DNA of 22,678 nt from a virus. Below, piece after piece: positions 3,646-22,599 of this stretch. The notes under the pieces were generated by a model. It worked only from the letters and a program-made list of their open reading frames with translations, was not told where the DNA came from and did not search any database. A program made the translations under genes and the position numbers. The stretch is taken from positions 1 to 22,678 of IMG/VR virus record IMGVR_UViG_3300017779_000172. One strand, 5' to 3'. The first letter of the stretch is position 1, and each line of letters opens with the position of its first letter.

Positions 3646-6070
3646 ACAACCGAATGTAATACCTTTCCAAGAAGGCGCTCCTGCAGACGAATTAGAGGTT
3701 GAGCAGATAGGCGATGAAGTCTTAATCGGTAATGCATCATTAGATGACATTGTAGAAATAACAGATGAACACGACCAAAACCTAGCAGAAGAACTAGATG
3801 AAAATGATTCAGCAAGAAAAGCACAGAATTTACTTGAAGCTTTTGAAAGTGATAAAGAGGCTAGGTCTGAATGGGAATATAGGTACAAACAAGGTTTAGA
3901 AACATTAGAACCAGATGGTGGTCTTTCAGAAGAAGAAGAACAGAGAGCAACAAGAGGTTTAAGTACTGTCGTACACCCTATGATTGCTGAAGCGGCAACT
4001 CAATTTAATGCGAAAGCTATTGCAGAATTATATCCATCTGGAGGACCAGTAAAAACAACTATTATTGGTGAACCTACAGAGGAATTAGAAGACCAAGCAA
4101 GACGTGTTAAAGATTACATGAACTATCAGATAACACAAGAAATGCCTGAGTATTTCCCAGATTTAGATACAATGTTGTTTCAATTACCACTTATTGGTCA
4201 TGCTTTTAAGAAAGTATTTTTCGATACAAATTTAGGTAGACAATGTTCTCAATTCGTTAAAGCAGAAGATTTTATAGTTGCACCAGATAGTAAAGATTTA
4301 CTTACATCTATTAGATATTCACACATAATAAGAATGCCAAGAAACGACTATAATCGTTATGTTGAAGGCGGATATTATTTACCTATCAAATATGTGGGTA
4401 GTGAAATAGACCCTGCAGGAAATATAGGCGAAGAAATAGAAGGTGTTTCTCAAGGAGACGAAGCACATAACGAAACAGTAACACTTATAGAAATGCACGT
4501 TTACGAAACTTTTGATGGTATTGATGGTATTACAGATGATAAAGAAAACCAAGATATGGTGGCATTTCCCTATGTAGTAACAATAGATTATGATTCACAA
4601 AAGATTGTATCAGTAAGAAGAAACTGGGAACAAGAAGACGAAAAGAAATTAAGACAGAACTATTTTATTTCATATAGATTTTTGCCGGGTACTGGTTTCT
4701 ATGGATTTGGTCTATTTCATTTAATAGGAGGTCTTGGAAAAGCGGCGACTGGTTCACTAAGAGCATTATTAGATTCGGCGGCTTTCAGTAATATGCAAGG
4801 CGGATTTAAACTTAAAGGCAGAGTTACTGGTGGAGACTTACAAGTAAATCCCGGTGAGTTTGCTGATTTAGATGCTACTGTTGATGATGTTAATAAGGCT
4901 ATAATGCCATTACCATTTAAAGAGCCATCAGGAACTTTGTTTAATTTAATGAATGCTATTGTTCAAGCAGGACAGAGATTTGCTAGTACTGCTGATTTAA
5001 ATGTTGGTGATGTAAATCCAAATGCACCTGTTGGCTCTACTGTTGCTCTTATAGAACAAGGTAGTAAAGCATTTAGTGCTATTCATAAAAGACTACATTA
5101 TTCTCAAGGACAAGAATTTAAATTAATAGCGAAATCTAATGCAAAATATTTACCAGAACAATTTGAATTTGCAATATCTGGTGTAACAACCAAAATATTC
5201 TCTACTGATTTTGATAGTACGATTGATATTGTACCAGTTTCAGACCCTAATGTTTTCAGTACTGCACAGAGAATTGCACAAGCACAGAGCGTTTTACAAT
5301 TATCACAATCAGCACCACAACTTTATGATATGTACGATACTCATAAAAGAATGTTAGAGGCATTAAGAATACCAAATATTGGCGAAGTTTTAAAAGAACC
5401 AGAAGAAGCCGTTAGAATTGACCCAGTAGATGAAAATATGTCTGTTATGTATGGTAAACCTATAAGAGCATTCCCAGAACAAGACCACGATGCTCATATT
5501 GCAGTTCATATGCAATTTATTCAAGACCCATCGCTTGGTGGAAATCCCGGTGCAAGAAATTTACAACCAGTATTAATTGCACATATAGCAGAACATATTG
5601 CCTTATTGTATAGACAAAGAATGCAAACAGCTATCGGTATGCAATTAGCACCACTGCCAGATATAAGAGACCCTAAATTTAAATTTGAAGATTTATCGCC
5701 AGAACTTGATATGCAGATTTCACAAAGAGCATCACAAGTCGTTGCACAATCACCTCAAATGGCACAAATAGATGCTATTACAAATCTAGGTCAACAACAA
5801 CAACAAGGTAATCCTTTACAATTTGCACAACAATTAGCACAATTAGAAGCGCAAATGTTACAGATGAAGACCAAACAAGACCTTGAGATAGAATCAGCAA
5901 AAGCGAAACAAGATATGCAGATTAAAGATGCAGAATTTCAACAAGATTTAGCTATGGAACAGGCTAAAACACAGGCAGATATAAATGCCAAATTTGCAAA
6001 GTTAGAAGCAGACTTGGCAATATTAAGAGAAAAAAACTTAGCTAAACAAATCGATAAAGGAGTTTTATAA
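3638..6070 (+). CDS. Portal protein
   Basis: An 810-residue protein just after terL, the standard place for the portal (the dodecameric DNA channel at the capsid vertex). After an acidic N-terminal tail (about residues 10-60, many D/E) comes RSEWEYRYKQGLETL, then STVVHPMIAEAATQFNAKAI and ELYPSGGPVKT, typical of large podovirus-type portals. The middle has a stretch FLPGTGFYGFGLFHLIGGLGK. From about residue 690 to the end the protein is Gln/Ala/Lys-rich and strongly helical (repeated QQ, AQQLAQLEAQMLQMK), consistent with the long C-terminal barrel helices or coiled coil of this portal class. It starts 8 nt inside terL and ends on a TAATG overlap with the next gene. Assignment rests on position, size and these segments rather than a catalytic motif. 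Confidence 0.85.
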   Translation: MAKQPNVIPFQEGAPADELEVEQIGDEVLIGNASLDDIVEITDEHDQNLAEELDENDSARKAQNLLEAFESDKEARSEWEYRYKQGLETLEPDGGLSEEEEQRATRGLSTVVHPMIAEAATQFNAKAIAELYPSGGPVKTTIIGEPTEELEDQARRVKDYMNYQITQEMPEYFPDLDTMLFQLPLIGHAFKKVFFDTNLGRQCSQFVKAEDFIVAPDSKDLLTSIRYSHIIRMPRNDYNRYVEGGYYLPIKYVGSEIDPAGNIGEEIEGVSQGDEAHNETVTLIEMHVYETFDGIDGITDDKENQDMVAFPYVVTIDYDSQKIVSVRRNWEQEDEKKLRQNYFISYRFLPGTGFYGFGLFHLIGGLGKAATGSLRALLDSAAFSNMQGGFKLKGRVTGGDLQVNPGEFADLDATVDDVNKAIMPLPFKEPSGTLFNLMNAIVQAGQRFASTADLNVGDVNPNAPVGSTVALIEQGSKAFSAIHKRLHYSQGQEFKLIAKSNAKYLPEQFEFAISGVTTKIFSTDFDSTIDIVPVSDPNVFSTAQRIAQAQSVLQLSQSAPQLYDMYDTHKRMLEALRIPNIGEVLKEPEEAVRIDPVDENMSVMYGKPIRAFPEQDHDAHIAVHMQFIQDPSLGGNPGARNLQPVLIAHIAEHIALLYRQRMQTAIGMQLAPLPDIRDPKFKFEDLSPELDMQISQRASQVVAQSPQMAQIDAITNLGQQQQQGNPLQFAQQLAQLEAQMLQMKTKQDLEIESAKAKQDMQIKDAEFQQDLAMEQAKTQADINAKFAKLEADLAILREKNLAKQIDKGVL

Positions 6071-7970: not shown

Positions 7971-8139
7971 TTTTTTACTTCTTTGTCATCAAACAATGAT
8001 GTTACCAGAAGAAGAAATAGAAGAAGATGACGAACATCATGGCGACATGAAAGTCAAAGTCATCAAAATGGACTCTGGAAACATGCATGAAATGATGAAT
8101 GACATTCTTGGTCATGGCTCACCAAAAGTAGATATGTAA
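7858..8139 (+). CDS. Small acidic hypothetical protein
   Basis: A 93-residue, strongly acidic protein (MEKNEELFEEK, EEEIEEDDEHHGD). The ATG at 7858 has a textbook AAGGAG at 7846-7851, 6 nt away, so translation initiation here is well supported even though it lies 113 nt inside the preceding gene in another frame. No known domain is recognised. The C-terminal half is rich in Met and His (MKVKVIKMDSGNMHEMMND). It ends on a TAATG overlap with the next micro-ORF. Its acidity contrasts with the lysine-rich proteins encoded directly downstream, so an electrostatic partner role is conceivable but is only inference. Confidence 0.72.
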   Translation: MEAIEIGNMEKNEELFEEKMGFKRDEEGLELSDEQLVNFLLLCHQTMMLPEEEIEEDDEHHGDMKVKVIKMDSGNMHEMMNDILGHGSPKVDM

Positions 8140-8279
8140 TGCCTTTTACAAAGTATTCAAAAAAACAAAAAGCACTTGCTAGGGTAGCAAAACCTAGAAA
8201 TGCTATTACTGGTGCTGATTTTGCAAAACTTAAAAAGAAGAAGAAAAATGGCAAAAAAACCAAAACAAAGAAAGTTTAA
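8139..8279 (+). CDS. Lysine-rich 46-aa phage micro-protein
   Basis: A 46-residue ORF reading MPFTKYSKKQKALARVAKP, then RNAITGADFAKL and a nearly pure Lys/Thr tail. It starts on a TAATG overlap with the preceding stop and ends inside the next gene (32-nt overlap). The pattern of a short basic N-terminus, an AxPRxxITGADFxxLK core and a Lys tail is one I recognise from small conserved proteins in the virion region of marine phages, which supports it as a true gene despite its length. Function is unknown; it may bind DNA or the acidic surfaces of virion proteins. Confidence 0.65.
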   Translation: MPFTKYSKKQKALARVAKPRNAITGADFAKLKKKKKNGKKTKTKKV

Positions 8280-8445
8280 AAAGGTACCAAAGACCAAGAA
8301 AGGTACTCCTAAGAAATATCTCGCAGGTGCAAAGAACCCTAAGGCGAGAGAAAGAGAAATAAAACGTACTGCTAAATTATACAAAGAAGGCAAACTTACA
8401 AAAGCTATGATGGATAAAATTAGTAAACAAAGGAGTAAGTCGTAA
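8248..8445 (+). CDS. Lysine-rich 65-aa hypothetical phage protein
   Basis: A 65-residue highly basic protein: MAKKPKQRKFKKVPKTKK, then KKYLAGAKNPKAREREIKRT and a helical C-terminus (LYKEGKLTKAMMDKI). ATG 8248 is preceded by a purine-rich AAGAAGAAGAAAA that can serve as a ribosome-binding site. The open frame extends back to 8200, but that would add a hydrophobic stretch (MLLLVLILQN) read from inside the previous gene, so the later start is preferred. It ends on a TAATG overlap with the following gene. No enzymatic motif is visible; the YLAGAKNPKAR.RE pattern is typical of small phage proteins of unknown function. Confidence 0.65.
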   Translation: MAKKPKQRKFKKVPKTKKGTPKKYLAGAKNPKAREREIKRTAKLYKEGKLTKAMMDKISKQRSKS

Positions 8446-8693
8446 TGGCAGAAACCAAAAAGAAAAAAGGTGGTAAATATTCTGGTATTAAGGGTGCAGG
8501 TAGATTTTCAAAAGAAAAACTAGATAAGGTCTATAAGAGAGGACTAGGAGCATATTATTCTTCTGGCAGTAGACCAAAGGTTTCAGCACAACAATGGGCT
8601 ATGGGTAGGGTTAAATCGTTTGTAACAGGTAAAGGTGGAGCTAGAAAAGCAGATGCCGATTTACTTGGTAAAGGTAAAAAGAAAAAAACATAG
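8445..8693 (+). CDS. DUF5824-like small basic phage protein
   Basis: An 82-residue protein. Flanked by Lys-rich ends, the core KVYKRGLGAYYSSGSRPKVSAQQWAMGRVKSFVTGKGGARKADADLL matches the conserved pattern I associate with DUF5824 in phages (K-GL-AY-sSG-RP-xSAxQWA-xRxxSF-...-DxDL). The domain occurs in many marine phages near head genes; its function is not established. It starts on a TAATG overlap and ends with a TAG that itself forms part of the AGGAG serving the next gene. High Lys content suggests nucleic-acid or capsid contact. The family name is from memory and would need a profile search to confirm. Confidence 0.72.
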   Translation: MAETKKKKGGKYSGIKGAGRFSKEKLDKVYKRGLGAYYSSGSRPKVSAQQWAMGRVKSFVTGKGGARKADADLLGKGKKKKT

Positions 8694-8702
8694 GAGTTTA
8701 AA

Positions 8703-8873
8703 ATGGCAAAAGGTGTAAAACATTATTTTAAAAATGGTAAAGAACATAAAGGTGCTACACATAAAGATGCTAAAGGTAGAGTTATGTCTGGTAAAACTCA
8801 TACATCATCTAGTAAATATCTTGTTCACAAAAAAGATTTATCACCTACTGCTAAGAAAAGAGCAAATGCATAA
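8703..8873 (+). CDS. Small basic phage protein (56 aa)
   Basis: A 56-residue ORF: MAKGVKHYFKNGKEHKGATH, followed by KDAKGRVMSGKTHTSSSKYL and VHKKDLSPTAKKRANA. AGGAG at 8692-8696 sits 6 nt before the ATG, and the stop overlaps the next start as TAATG. The pattern (GxKHYx-xGKExKGxTHK ... SGxxHTxSSKxLxHKKDL) is one I recognise from conserved small proteins in marine phage structural regions, so it is very likely a real gene. It is rich in Lys and His; no function is known. Confidence 0.7.
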   Translation: MAKGVKHYFKNGKEHKGATHKDAKGRVMSGKTHTSSSKYLVHKKDLSPTAKKRANA

Positions 8874-13930: not shown

Positions 13931-14013
13931 CGACAATAACCCTAAAATACTGTGGTATGATATAACAAGAAAACAATTAACCATAACTGATTGACGTTCT
14001 TAGGAAGATAAAA

Positions 14014-14073
14014 ACCCTAGCCATATAATGAGAAAAAATGACTAGGGTCTGAGGTCTGGGGAGGATACCTCCC
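14014..14073. terminator. Paired hairpins between convergent operons
   Basis: The 143-nt gap between the plus-strand gene ending at 13930 and the minus-strand gene ending at 14074 holds two inverted repeats. ACCCTAG (14014-14020) pairs with CTAGGGT (14042-14048) around a 21-nt loop. GGGAGG (14059-14064) pairs perfectly with CCTCCC (14068-14073) around the loop ATA. There is no long T-run; TTATACTTTATT follows on the plus strand. The tail-to-tail position suggests transcription termination for the plus operon or in both directions, but a canonical intrinsic terminator is not complete. Confidence 0.45.
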
Positions 14074-14334
14074 TTATACTTTATTCAATTTTATAGCCCT
14101 CTGCAATACTCTATGTCTTTGTAATTGAGTTAAATTAGAAATAACATTAAGAACTTTAATTGCATATTGCCTTTCATGTTCGACCTTAAACTCATAGTTT
14201 CTTTGTGTAGGTTCTTTAATAACATCAAATTGCTTTTTAATAAGTTCCATATCAAAGCCATGTTTTTCAATAAGTAAATCAACTTCTTTTTGAGTGACTT
14301 TATCTTTAGAAACAATCTTGGTAGGTTTATCCAT
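14074..14334 (-). CDS. Hypothetical small protein, minus-strand islet
   Basis: An 86-residue, charged, mostly helical protein: MDKPTKIVSKDKVTQKEVDL, LIEKHGFDMELIKKQFDVIK, ending LQRHRVLQRAIKLNKV. The start has a strong AAGGAG followed by AAAATCT before the ATG on the minus strand, and overlaps the upstream islet gene by 8 nt, so it is translationally coupled and last in the inverted group. No family is recognised and no membrane or signal segment is visible. Its stop abuts the GGGAGG/CCTCCC hairpin. Confidence 0.65.
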   Translation of the reverse strand: MDKPTKIVSKDKVTQKEVDLLIEKHGFDMELIKKQFDVIKEPTQRNYEFKVEHERQYAIKVLNVISNLTQLQRHRVLQRAIKLNKV

Positions 14335-14710
14335 AGATTTTCTCCTTTTGAATAAAATTTATTATATGTTCTTCTATTTCAGATAAATCGCTTGATAAAT
14401 ACTCTGTTCTATCAATCATGGCATAATAATTACCATTCTTGTTATGCATAATACCAACGTTGTAATCAAAACTGTCTTTTTGTAAATCTGCCTTATTTTG
14501 CAAATAAACATACATACCTTGAAATTCTTTCTTTTCTTCTTTTGAATTTTTAAAAGTATCTATTTTAAAATAGTATCTAGTGAAATTTGTCGTAATAGGT
14601 ATATCTAAATCAATTTCTCTAGCCATTTTATCTAATGTTTCTTTACCAGAAGATGACATTCTATCGTATTCCCAATACAAATCATCTATATATTTTTTTA
14701 TATTTTTCAT
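14327..14710 (-). CDS. Hypothetical protein, minus-strand islet
   Basis: A 127-residue protein. The N-terminus is helical (MKNIKKYIDDLYWEYDRMSS) and the middle alternates like a beta sheet (TRYYFKIDTF, FQGMYVYLQNK, YNVGIMHNKNGNYYAMID), ending in a helix (LSEIEEHIINFIQKEK). I do not recognise a family. The gene is preceded on the minus strand by TTTGGGAGAAAACAATG, a leader shared almost exactly with two other islet genes. A GC-rich hairpin (14730-14746) separates it from the gene upstream, so its level may be attenuated relative to that gene. Confidence 0.68.
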   Translation of the reverse strand: MKNIKKYIDDLYWEYDRMSSSGKETLDKMAREIDLDIPITTNFTRYYFKIDTFKNSKEEKKEFQGMYVYLQNKADLQKDSFDYNVGIMHNKNGNYYAMIDRTEYLSSDLSEIEEHIINFIQKEKIYG

Positions 14711-14729
14711 TGTTTTCTCCCAAATGAAA

Positions 14730-14746
14730 GGGGGAACAAGTCCCCC
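14730..14746 (-). terminator. Intergenic hairpin inside the minus-strand islet
   Basis: GGGGGA (14730-14735) pairs with TCCCCC (14741-14746) around a 5-nt loop. Read on the minus strand it is GGGGGA-CTTGT-TCCCCC followed by TTTCATTT, so a T-rich but imperfect tail is present. It lies just after the stop of the 90-aa gene and just before the leader of the 127-aa gene. A partial terminator or mRNA-stability element is the likely role. Confidence 0.55.
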
Positions 14747-14752
14747 AAGTTA

Positions 14753-15025
14753 TTATTTATTTGATTCTATAGTTTGAATTAAATGGTTCTTTTCAAATAC
14801 GTTGAAATAGAATGGAACTTTTTTCTTTTCTTTTTTACCATTCTTTATAATTTCTTTATCAAGAACTTTCATTAATCTTGCACAAGATTTAGCACCTTTT
14901 AATTCTTTACCAGATAATTTAAAGAAGTCTATTGCTTGTCTGAATGTGCAAAATTCATTACCTAAACCTTGTAATAGGTCTATGTTGTTACCTTGATATT
15001 CTTGATTTGTAGTAAAATTTATCAT
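14753..15025 (-). CDS. Small ArdC-N-like protein (possible anti-restriction domain)
   Basis: A 90-residue protein. YQGNNIDLLQ, EFCTFRQAIDFF, a Lys/Gly turn (GKELKGAKSCARLMKVL) and FYFNVFEKNHL follow the spacing of the ArdC N-terminal ssDNA-binding domain (YxGxN--LL ... TFxQA ... xxKGxKxxxxx ... YxVFNxxQ). It is shorter than a usual ArdC-N domain and lacks the metallopeptidase-type C-terminal part. If the match holds, it would bind DNA and protect phage DNA from host nucleases; ArdC proteins are known anti-restriction factors of plasmids and phages. It has its own promoter (15061-15088) and the TTTTTGGGAGAAAACAAATG leader. The resemblance is by eye and could instead reflect a small unrelated phage family. 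Confidence 0.6.
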   Translation of the reverse strand: MINFTTNQEYQGNNIDLLQGLGNEFCTFRQAIDFFKLSGKELKGAKSCARLMKVLDKEIIKNGKKEKKKVPFYFNVFEKNHLIQTIESNK

Positions 15026-15060
15026 TTGTTTTCTCCCAAAAATTGATAATTTATAATTTT

Positions 15061-15088
15061 ATAGTACCATATACTACATCTAAGTCAA
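15061..15088 (-). promoter_or_regulatory. Sigma70-type promoter for the 90-aa gene
   Basis: On the minus strand TTGACT (15083-15088) is followed 16 nt later by TACTAT (15061-15066). The -35 lies in a 25-nt block that is repeated exactly at the other islet promoter. It sits 36 nt upstream of the start codon at 15025 and downstream of a strong terminator, so it restarts transcription for the second half of the islet. Confidence 0.7.
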
Positions 15089-15106
15089 CACAAAAAAGGT
15101 TCTTTT
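15082..15106. repeat. 25-nt direct repeat, copy 1
   Basis: These 25 nt are identical to 15723-15747. The block begins AAGTCAACACAAAAAAGG on the plus strand and contains the -35 box of the minus-strand promoter (TTGACT) plus its upstream A/T tract. Confidence 0.9.
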
Positions 15107-15118
15107 ATACATTTAATT

Positions 15119-15144
15119 AAAAAAAAGAGGGAAATAAATCCCTC
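15119..15144 (-). terminator. Intrinsic terminator, minus strand
   Basis: On the minus strand GAGGGA-TTTATT-TCCCTC (15127-15144) is followed directly by eight T residues (15126 down to 15119), a canonical rho-independent terminator. It lies 25 nt past the stop of the 58-aa gene and just before the second promoter, closing the first islet transcript. Confidence 0.82.
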
Positions 15145-15169
15145 AATTCTTTATTATTTGTTTTGTATT

Positions 15170-15346
15170 TTATTTATACATATTCATTTTTTCAAATATT
15201 GGTCTTAGAAATTTTTCAGCAAGTTTTATTTCTTCATCTGAATAATTTTTAGAGTATGATTTAAGAGTCATTTTAAATTCATTTGTATCATAAATTATAC
15301 ATCTTAATTCAGTCATTTCTTGTTTTGAAAAGTTTAATGTAGTCAT
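15170..15346 (-). CDS. Hypothetical micro-protein (58 aa), minus-strand islet
   Basis: A 58-residue ORF: MTTLNFSKQEMTELRCIIYD, then TNEFKMTLKSYSKNYSDEEI and KLAEKFLRPIFEKMNMYK. AGGGAGAAAAAA precedes the ATG on the minus strand, matching the strong leaders of the neighbouring islet genes, and the gene lies 10 nt after the stop of the YodL-like gene and just before a strong terminator. These signals support a real gene. The composition is typical of a small soluble helical protein; no family is recognised. Confidence 0.65.
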   Translation of the reverse strand: MTTLNFSKQEMTELRCIIYDTNEFKMTLKSYSKNYSDEEIKLAEKFLRPIFEKMNMYK

Positions 15347-15356
15347 TTTTTTCTCC

Positions 15357-15665
15357 CTATCTTAATATTCTAATTGGTTGAAACCCAATTGGTGCTACCA
15401 AATGAGCAATTTTTGTATCTTGGTCAACAATTATGTCTCCACAAGATATAGAATAAAATTTATCAATCTTTTCTACTTTCTCATGTTCTACATTACCAAT
15501 TGCAAAAACCTCATTAAGATTGTCAGCTTTGATATAACCTGCATCTCTATAATTACCATTATCCCAAGCATCTTTTATTATATCTACATTAGACCTTGAG
15601 ATTTGATAAGCAGTCCCATCATCTATTTCAGAATGATTAGGTTGTAATATTAAGTATTTTTTCAT
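15357..15665 (-). CDS. YodL-like domain protein, first gene of the minus-strand islet
   Basis: A 102-residue protein opening MKKYLILQPNHSEIDDG. The segment DNLNEVFAIGNVEHEKVEKI, followed by FYSISCGDIIVD and AHLVAPIGFQPI, resembles the ending of YodL-type domains (x-IYxxxN ... hSxSVGDVV ... xxVxxxGFxxi) found in phage and mobile-element polyvalent proteins and sometimes as stand-alone proteins. The biochemical role of the domain is not established; comparative studies link it to counter-defence loci. The gene has a near-consensus promoter at 15701-15729 and the TTTTTGGGAGAAAACAATG leader, so it should be efficiently expressed. Confidence in the gene is high, in the family moderate. Confidence 0.68.
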   Translation of the reverse strand: MKKYLILQPNHSEIDDGTAYQISRSNVDIIKDAWDNGNYRDAGYIKADNLNEVFAIGNVEHEKVEKIDKFYSISCGDIIVDQDTKIAHLVAPIGFQPIRILR

Positions 15666-15700
15666 TGTTTTCTCCCAAAAACGTTGTTGTTTATAAGTAC

Positions 15701-15729
15701 ATAGTACTATATTACTATATACAAGTCAA
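15701..15729 (-). promoter_or_regulatory. Sigma70-type promoter for the minus-strand islet
   Basis: On the minus strand TTGACT (15724-15729) and TACTAT (15701-15706) are separated by exactly 17 nt. It lies 36 nt upstream of the YodL-like start codon at 15665 and drives the first two islet genes up to the terminator at 15119-15144. Confidence 0.75.
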
Positions 15730-15747
15730 CACAAAAAAGGTTCTTTT
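15723..15747. repeat. 25-nt direct repeat, copy 2
   Basis: Exact second copy of 15082-15106, again carrying the -35 box and upstream A/T tract of a minus-strand promoter. Sequences on either side differ between copies, so the conserved part is upstream of the start site. Confidence 0.9.
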
Positions 15748-15751
15748 TATA

Positions 15752-15811
15752 ATTAATTGTAATTTTTTTTTAAAGTACTATCTATATTTATATATAACTG
15801 TTACAATTAAT
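15752..15811. promoter_or_regulatory. Widely spaced 11-bp inverted repeat in the divergent intergenic region
   Basis: ATTAATTGTAA (15752-15762) and its exact reverse complement TTACAATTAAT (15801-15811) flank 38 nt of T/A-rich sequence between the minus-strand islet promoter and the plus-strand gene starting at 15832. The layout suits a two-site operator for a dimeric regulator, or a long AT hairpin in RNA. No clear sigma70 promoter for the plus strand is visible, although TATATT and TATAAC hexamers occur between the arms. Confidence 0.4.
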
Positions 15812-15831
15812 GTGTTGTTTTAGGAGTAACA

Positions 15832-20719: not shown

Positions 20720-21418
20720 ATGGCAACATCAGGAACAGTTGCGTTTAGACCAAATATTGAAGAAATAATAACAGAATCTTTTGAAAGATGTGGTCTTGAT
20801 ATTCAGACAAGAACTGGCGACCAAGCCATATCTGCCAGAAGAAGTTTAAATTTATTATTTTCTGAATGGGCTAATCGTGGAATAAACTATTGGACTGTTA
20901 CACAAAATACATTAAATTTGGTACAAGGTACAAGTTCTTATGACCTACCTGCAGGTGTTTTAGATTTTCTTGATGTTGTTATTTATAATTCTGCTGATGC
21001 GACAAGAACAGATACGATAATTAACAGAGTTACAATAGGCGAATATAATCAAATACCTAATAAAACAGATACTGGTAGACCTAATCAGTATATGTTAGAT
21101 AAAGGTAGACAAGCAGGTTCAAATAATATTTATAAAGTATATGTTTGGCAAACACCAGATATTGGTACATATGTTTTAAATTACTGGGCAATGACACAAT
21201 TAGATGATGTTACATTATCTAACCAAGACTCAGACATTCCTTACACATGGTCTGATTGTATCTGTGCAGGATTAGCTAGTAAATTATCTGTAAAATATGC
21301 ACCAGATAAATATCAACTTTTAAAATCTTTATATGACGAAGCATTTAGTTTGGCTTCTCAAAATGATAACGATGGTGTTTCTTTAAAATTACAACCCACA
21401 GGGCTTAATTTAAGATAA
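20720..21418 (+). CDS. Head-tail adaptor / neck protein, P22 gp4-like
   Basis: A 232-residue protein with the pattern of P22 gp4-type packaged-DNA-stabilisation or adaptor proteins. The helical N-terminus IEEIITESFERCGLDIQTRT precedes ISARRSLNLLFSEWANRGIN, then YWTVTQNTLNLVQGTSSYDLPAG, an IIYxW-like beta part (NIYKVYVWQTPDIGTYVLNY) and the DIPYTWSDCICAGLASKLSV helix that ends in the family's KY.PD segment. Family members bind the portal and extend the channel towards the tail. The stop of the previous gene forms part of its AGGA ribosome site. It ends on a TAATG overlap with the next gene, indicating coupled expression of neck components. Confidence 0.75.
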   Translation: MATSGTVAFRPNIEEIITESFERCGLDIQTRTGDQAISARRSLNLLFSEWANRGINYWTVTQNTLNLVQGTSSYDLPAGVLDFLDVVIYNSADATRTDTIINRVTIGEYNQIPNKTDTGRPNQYMLDKGRQAGSNNIYKVYVWQTPDIGTYVLNYWAMTQLDDVTLSNQDSDIPYTWSDCICAGLASKLSVKYAPDKYQLLKSLYDEAFSLASQNDNDGVSLKLQPTGLNLR

Positions 21419-22599
21419 TGGCAAAATTTGCATCTGGTATAAAATCAAAAGCAATAAGTGATATAAGTGGTTTTGAGGTAAGATATACTCAATTAAGAAC
21501 CACTTGGGATAATCTTAGAGTAGAACCAGAAGAATACGACCCAAAGCAACCACAACTTACACCTGCCAAAAATGTTACAGATGCAACTGCATTATTTAAT
21601 CCACGACCAAATAATGACCCAGAAAATGTAACAATCCAAATTGGTTTTACTCAAGATATATTCGCTTCAAGAATAGCTAGGTCGCAAACTGGTATTGGTG
21701 CTCATGCAAGAGGAAATGTAGGTACAGTATCTTTTGTAATAGAAGAAGAACAAACAGGTGTTGCAGGAACAACTGCTATAGGTGCTTTTGGTGCAGGGTT
21801 TGATGTATCTGGAGTTGCAGGAACAACTGCTATTGGTAATTATACACCACAAGACCAAATAGACGTAGATGTTACAGAGGTTGGAGCTACAAGTGCTATT
21901 GGTGCATTTGGTGCAGGTGTTGGTATAACTGGTGTTCAAGCTACTGGTGGAACTGGTACTGAAACAATTACACATGATAGAATATTTGATTTACCAAATG
22001 GTGGAGTAGATGGAACTGGTGCGATTGGTACTTCTGCACCACAAACAGATGTCATATCTACTAATATTGCAGGTACTAGTGCAGTTGGTGCTGAAATACC
22101 ACAATCAGATGTTATAGCGACTGGAGTTACAGGAACTGGTGTTATTGGTACGTTTGGAGAAGAAGGTAATGGTACATTAAATCTAACTATTACACCAACA
22201 AGTGCTACTGGTACTGCCAATGCAGGTTCAGAAGTTGCTGAAAGTGAAATACCAGAAACAAACACTAATGGTTGGGGTGAGCAAACATGGGGTTCTGGTA
22301 TATGGGGTGGAGATGGAGAAGTTAAGGCAACTGGTGGCGTAGGTGCATCATCTATAGATATTTTCATAGGTCCATTCCCAACTGGAGTTGCGGGAAATAC
22401 TGCGATAGGTACTTATGTACCAGAAAATGAACTTACAGAGAGTGGAGTTGCAGGAACTGGTGGAGTTGGTACATTAAGCCTTGATACTGATGTTGATGTA
22501 ACTGGTATTGCAGGTACGTTTGCAATAGGAGAAGAATCAGTTATTATAGATGGAGGATTTGGAGAAGGAACTTATGGCTCAGGAACGTGGGGTAATTAA
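21418..22599 (+). CDS. Phage structural protein with glycine-rich tandem repeats
   Basis: A 393-residue protein. The N-terminal ~100 residues are a conserved module: KAISDISGFEVRYTQLRTTW, DNLRVEPEEYDPKQPQLTPA, then DATALFNPRPNN, known to me from marine phage neck or tail proteins. From about residue 110 onwards some ten to twelve degenerate ~20-residue units occur (TGVAGTTAIGAFGAG, SGVAGTTAIGNYTPQ, TGVAGNTAIGTYVPEN, SGVAGTGGVGTLS). Two WG/YG segments are interspersed (NGWGEQTWGSGIWGG and GFGEGTYGSGTWGN, the latter ending the protein). This suits an extended surface fibre or spike. It starts on a TAATG overlap with the adaptor gene and is followed directly by the next ATG. Confidence 0.75.
   Translation: MAKFASGIKSKAISDISGFEVRYTQLRTTWDNLRVEPEEYDPKQPQLTPAKNVTDATALFNPRPNNDPENVTIQIGFTQDIFASRIARSQTGIGAHARGNVGTVSFVIEEEQTGVAGTTAIGAFGAGFDVSGVAGTTAIGNYTPQDQIDVDVTEVGATSAIGAFGAGVGITGVQATGGTGTETITHDRIFDLPNGGVDGTGAIGTSAPQTDVISTNIAGTSAVGAEIPQSDVIATGVTGTGVIGTFGEEGNGTLNLTITPTSATGTANAGSEVAESEIPETNTNGWGEQTWGSGIWGGDGEVKATGGVGASSIDIFIGPFPTGVAGNTAIGTYVPENELTESGVAGTGGVGTLSLDTDVDVTGIAGTFAIGEESVIIDGGFGEGTYGSGTWGN

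Follow-up and report, generated by a model that had tools for sequence, protein, structure and literature searches.

In the establishment regulon of the plasmid p576, a common element lies upstream of ardC, of other genes and of the regulator gene, and the sole constant members are ardC and reg (PMC8708921). At acr-aca loci, the HTH repressors Aca1 and Aca2 bind inverted repeats located over the promoter (PMC8434428), and in archaeal viruses candidate anti-defence genes have been recognised through a common early regulatory sequence (PMC11065993). Phage morons are extra genes that have their own promoter and terminator and sit between conserved genes. The window analysed here, a 22,678-base virus record from a marine phage with genes for terminase, portal, GroES and a capsid protein, contains an inverted islet of five short genes which, judged by analogy, appears to be a new variant of moron, establishment regulon or acr-aca logic.

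The likeness to the p576/pLS20 clade II establishment regulon (PMC8708921) lies in the combination of an ardC-type gene with variable small genes, in strong promoters and in an element that is also found before a regulator gene. The constant ardC and reg of p576 have a parallel in the ArdC-N gene, which is the commonest piece of the phage islets, and in the phage, too, a common upstream element precedes the ArdC-type gene, other genes and a regulator gene. The p576 regulon, however, belongs to a plasmid and has a full-length ArdC, a ribbon-helix-helix repressor, TTATCCC direct repeats and a repression that has been demonstrated, whereas the phage version, known from sequence alone, occurs in lytic-type phages and has an ArdC-N domain only, an HTH-type candidate regulator, a dyad and an antisense position in the late operon. 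The likeness to the acr-aca loci (PMC8434428) lies in small accessory genes behind a strong promoter, in a candidate HTH autoregulator and, less clearly, in inverted repeats placed over the -35/-10. The islet differs from these loci in being inverted, in having no Aca and no known Acr, and in having its candidate regulator in trans, in the early region; an Aca inside the islet was considered and rejected, as an HTH was not found among the islet genes. Because the regulator is in trans, the islet half-site is degenerate, and binding and timing are inferred, the islet is not counted here as a member of either the establishment regulons or the acr-aca loci. The anti-defence genes of archaeal viruses that were found under the guidance of early promoters (PMC11065993) differ in that both the promoters and the viruses are archaeal.

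Anatomy of the inverted islet

The nearest named phages by TerL are the roseophages CRP-901 and CRP-902 (73–74% identity), which are reported to be strictly lytic (PMC10149686). In profile searches, the capsid protein of the window matches Phage_capsid_4, and its match to Mu-like gpT is weak. Elsewhere in the window, two genes, one ParB-like (222 aa) and one of 296 aa, lie 5' of the terminase genes (162–1710) in an order kept in G001, very short Lys-rich basic proteins are clustered at 8139–8873, between the portal-side genes and a 970-aa gene, and a 393-aa protein composed of GTTAIGAFG-type repeat units (21418–22599) differs among relatives. On either side of the islet, the main genes all read on the plus strand, in agreement with an earlier note on this DNA, and in the islet block both the GC skew and the AT skew flip sign, unlike in the remaining window.

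The five inverted open reading frames that had been listed (102, 58, 90, 127 and 86 aa) were reproduced at exactly the same minus-strand coordinates, spanning 15665–14074. The first, g1 (15357–15665, 102 aa), encodes a probable YodL-like protein and is followed by g2 (15170–15346, 58 aa), a rare accessory gene, g3 (14753–15025, 90 aa), the stand-alone ArdC-N domain discussed below, and g4 (14327–14710, 127 aa), which is restricted to the closest relatives. The final islet gene, g5 (14074–14334, 86 aa), is conserved, and its start overlaps the end of g4.

The two minus-strand promoters proposed for the islet are copies of one 35-nt element that are 91% identical to each other, and their conserved core, GAACCTTTTTTGTGTTGACTT, has exact matches in 10 contigs out of 2.9 million viral contigs, every one of them at this islet. 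Both promoters have the box ACCTTTTTTGTGTTGAC on the minus strand. The first box (15725–15741) finishes at its right end in TTGAC, which serves the g1 promoter as its -35, and the -10, TACTAT, ends at 15701; in the second (15084–15100), the TACTAT -10 ends at 15061. A simple sigma-70 scan of the window recovered 15 sites compared to 18.1 in shuffles, a result that, on its own, gives the promoters no support. The islet promoters are credible because the element is repeated and conserved, not on account of the consensus scan.

The proposed intrinsic terminator is present 3' of g1-g2 (15119–15144, minus strand), where a GAGGG stem with a T tract folds beyond shuffles (z -4.2), and the islet closes with terminal hairpins (14012–14073, minus strand) consisting of a GGGAGG stem and then ACCCTAG...CTAGGGTTTTT (fold z -3.0 vs shuffles). 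A conserved, G/C-rich hairpin without a U tract lies 3' of g3 (14730–14746, minus strand) and trails g3 in clade relatives irrespective of the next gene (GGGGGACTTGTTCCCCC, GGGGGGTTTATCCCCCC, GAGAGGGTTTAACCCTCTC); this structure may be an attenuator, a 3' stabiliser or a recombination border. The leaders reported for the islet were likewise recovered as three copies of GGGAGAAAACA, found nowhere else in the window, of which the early-type leader of g1 occupies 15666–15676 (minus strand) and the others start at 15037 (g3) and 14721 (g4), while g2 has the variant GGGAGAAAAAA at 15357.

ArdC-N homology and the companion genes

The earlier note had staked its proposal on sensitive searches returning ArdC-N or YodL, and ArdC-N was returned: the resemblance suspected for one product is supported for g3 by Pfam, hhalign, fold comparison and BLASTP. 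The g3 protein of the window scores 16.5 bits against Pfam ArdC-N (PF08401), which is below the cut-off of 22.6. PF08401 matches 15 of 23 g3 homologs (best 7.5e-4), hhalign of g3 with nine genuine ArdC N-domains gives a probability of 96% (E 2.3e-9, a single comparison), and the g3 homolog of L199 retrieves an ArdC ORF by BLASTP (E 3.5e-5). The AF2 model of g3 has a pLDDT of 91.5, and the best Foldseek match among 350,542 PDB chains is 6i89, ArdC of R388 (prob 0.99, TMq 0.56), with an E of only 0.02. The same model had no match in a viral fold library, and a tblastn search of plasmids with g3 had none.

Compared to the plasmid anti-restriction protein ArdC (R388/pSa; PDB 6i89) and the ArdC-N of polyvalent proteins (PMC5512222), g3 has the same fold and the same motifs (N-TT-Y-G-N, TF-QA, KG-K and VF). 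The difference from ArdC of R388/pSa is that g3 consists of 90 aa alone: the alignment begins at ArdC residue ~40, leaving out the N-terminal helices with PWxKPW, and the C-terminal zincin metalloprotease is absent, with the longest g3 homologs reaching only 117–123 aa. As judged from the alignments and the structural model, g3 is a stand-alone, N-truncated ArdC-N domain. ArdC-N is a predicted ssDNA binder that is rare in phage-type polyvalent proteins (Iyer et al. 2017, PMC5512222).

The YodL-like resemblance claimed for a second product stands in part. The g1 protein of the window is sub-threshold against Pfam YodL (E 0.055, below the cut-off), and 5 of the 16 members of the g1 homolog alignment (A7) match YodL (best 4.8e-4), from which g1 is probably YodL-like. 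YodL is possibly not a counter-restriction domain, as has been argued (PMC5512222), and no YodL relatives were found when sought in 92 genomes.

The three remaining genes had been described as without a family, and profile searches of g2, g4 and g5 assigned none. Relatives of g2 occur only in L187/L217 and in L216 (47%). The fold search with g4 was without a match and is meaningless, because the AF2 model (pLDDT 64) is too poor. Weak matches of g4 to ATG5_UblA or RNase H, and of g5 to the GA module, Plasmid_stab_B, HSDR_N_2 or PADLOC PDC-M09A (E 0.0015 for the last), were dismissed as chance or unproven, and PDB sequence searches with all four islet alignments returned chance matches only. When g1, g3, g4 and g5 were compared by tblastn to 50,697 isolated-phage records, no relative was identified at E <= 1, making these four families new candidates for tests.

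A fixed slot with variable content

The earlier note had asked whether content varies at a fixed site across relatives, and reordered, lost and replaced genes show that it does. In relatives with the same head genes, the islet is antisense between a homolog of the 426-aa gene on one side and d65/GroES on the other. Islet genes were present at this slot in 13 of 13 low-GC relatives examined, antisense every time. Among 37 anchored loci, which include the near-identical L185 and L186, there are 14 with g1/g3/g5-type islets, one (L088) with a different antisense set and 22 with none, such that minus-strand islet genes are absent from the slot in 22 of the 23 other loci; CRP-901/902 have no antisense genes at the matching site. 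On the GroES tree, the islet is limited to the low-GC (30–35%) part, requiring 2 changes as opposed to 10.9 under shuffled labels. Together, the tree and the locus survey indicate a slot that is occupied across the whole low-GC clade by content that is not fixed, rather than the invariant core that had been named as the outcome contrary to the proposal.

The order g1-g2-g3-g4-g5 of the window becomes g1-g3-g4-g5 in L165, g3-g1-g4 in L166, a74-g3-g1-g4-g5 in L167 (a74 being a 74-aa accessory gene), g3-g1-g5 in L173, L174 and L185, and g3-a74-g1-g5 in L182, while in L189, L199, L211, L212 and L216 some of the genes are replaced by further ones. The cassette is therefore of fixed site and variable content. 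A Pfam scan of eight other proteins, seven from accessory slot genes and one from an early-region gene, assigned none of them. The antisense set of L088, a more diverged relative, occupies the same slot (L088:4992–5916) and encodes proteins of 77, 157 and 71 aa; relatives of the 157-aa protein are encoded in L086 and, adjoining g3, in L198.

Islets also recur beside unrelated head modules. In L188, L192, L193, L194, L197 and L203, g3 is antisense beside head genes, mostly in the company of further short genes and a homolog of g1 or g5. In those tested with Pfam (L188, L194, L197 and L203), HK97-family capsid, S78 protease and Mu-F head proteins adjoin g3, and the similar islets of HK97-type phages lie between Mu-F-like and protease/capsid genes. 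A 67-aa gene is common to the islets of both head types. The antisense arrangement, kept in all clade relatives and beside these unrelated head modules, would suit a regulatory role of the orientation, in which antisense transcription of the islet or its terminators shield the GroES-capsid operon downstream or set its timing, and the proteins are secondary. Yet the islet proteins retain 60–90% identity among relatives while the gene order shifts, and CRP-901/902 manage without an islet, leaving this a highly improbable account.

Early-type signals and the Cro-like regulator gene

Islet genes have the leader GGGAGAAA 5' of them in 13 of 14 cases, early-region genes in 19 of 95 and structural genes in 1 of 147, as counted in the window, a contig from the same species as the window and three long relatives that are not independent of one another, with genes called mechanically, the borders of islet and early region drawn by the analyst from gene content, and "early region" denoting replication-type genes outside the structural module whose timing is assumed. 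A homolog of the islet gene a74 lies among the early-region genes of G004 and has a leader of this kind too. Separate, strong expression had been expected of the islet, as for proteins needed early, and its leader and promoter box are early-type rather than late. Additionally, an early-region gene of 140–183 aa (MIKYTKDQLEL...) at G001:19504 (L219) and G002:6244 (L222) has both the islet box and the leader, and is a candidate for a further regulon member.

These signals bear on whether the islet is a classical moron, a cassette with its own transcription that benefits host or phage (e.g., by superinfection exclusion) and stands outside the early programme. As in morons, the islet has its own promoters and terminator and is variably present between conserved late genes, and its base composition is distinct. 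Unlike morons, it is multi-gene, always antisense and found in lytic-type phages with early-region signals. The match of leader and box to those of the early region, and the strictly lytic lifestyle reported for CRP-901/902, make a classical moron improbable.

A scan of 2.39 Mb for ACCTTTTTTGTGTTGAC with up to two mismatches yielded 25 distinct places, compared to 0–3 in reversed or shuffled controls, for which all matches were counted without de-duplication. Nearly all places are at islet genes, most of them being islet promoters, or at a Cro-like gene, and the recurrent non-islet place directly precedes a Cro-like gene of 76 aa in L004 (gene at 4547–4777), in L009 and in relatives. As the TerL of L004 and L009 is 99–100% identical to that of the window, the window's own species carries the box at the regulator gene. 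At this gene, the box is a perfect 21-bp dyad, GTAAACCTTTTTTGTGTTTAC, and the pattern GTMAAC-N9-GTTKAC has a single occurrence per genome, at the Cro-like gene, in 7 of 12 records. The Cro-like gene heads a run of genes toward a primase-type gene in G001, and its protein has weak scores against HTH families. While the full dyad is at the regulator gene, the left arm is degenerate in the islet boxes, which renders binding of the regulator at the islet uncertain.

In five clades, the islet box is closest to the regulator box of its own clade (12 mismatches vs a mean of 22.4; 1 of 120 permutations), in a comparison that includes the HK97-type-capsid phage G005 (L194 islet, L260 regulator), takes the islet and regulator of clade B from different contigs and has its similarity inflated by the shared ancestry of relatives; the co-variation is suggestive only, because the boxes and alignment were picked after inspection. 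It is probable that the islet promoters and the Cro-like regulator gene of the phage itself have a control element in common, and the box could also amount to no more than a widespread type of promoter. Upstream of gp12 in L180/L181, a CRP-901/902 dyad of the TTTACAG-N13-CTGTAAA type precedes an HTH gene of their own that is dissimilar; as dyad and HTH protein both differ, the box characterises the window's clade.

The preferred explanation, to which about an even chance is given, is that the islet is an early cassette antisense in the late operon, probably devoted to counter-defence or genome protection and possibly curtailed by the regulator. The islet would represent the phage's second early-gene locus, antisense inside the late head operon, and would be read by the host RNA polymerase soon after DNA entry from two sigma-70 promoters producing short transcripts, one of g1-g2 that is stopped by the terminator and one of g3-g4-g5. 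The products would be small host-takeover or DNA-protection proteins, among which the ArdC-N protein, the commonest piece and a predicted ssDNA binder, may cover phage DNA or protect it against host nucleases, or bring in partners, with the YodL-like g1 and g4/g5 acting as partners or independent effectors. Given the control element that probably links the promoters to the Cro-like regulator gene, accumulation of the regulator may curtail the islet burst before late transcription crosses the locus. Recombination would move genes into and out of the cassette.

As read from the sequence, counter-defence is the likeliest purpose of the islet and a role in replication the main rival. In the latter case, the early cassette would serve replication or host takeover, with ArdC-N as an accessory ssDNA-binding protein of replication or recombination and the other products retuning host physiology. 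The early-type leaders and box would fit this too, a g3 homolog adjoins a primase-type gene in L198 and L201, and YodL has been tied to MreB rather than restriction (PMC5512222), but shuffled, variable content in one clade and in scattered unrelated phages has the look of accessory conflict genes rather than of core replication, and a replication role is considered rather unlikely.

The preferred counter-defence cassette can, tentatively and with somewhat less than even confidence, be extended to an equivalent, in phages, of the establishment regulon of plasmids, in which one early Cro-like regulator would govern a split early regulon with a counter-defence cassette of variable make-up, built around a stand-alone ArdC-N protein and antisense in the head cluster, across non-homologous head modules. 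Should this be the case, lytic-type phages would share establishment-gene logic with conjugative plasmids, and antisense slots among head genes would be recurrent homes for such genes. The box and leader would then provide a sequence handle by which accessory genes, probably of anti-defence function, could be located in abundant marine phages that are uncultured and beyond the reach of homology.
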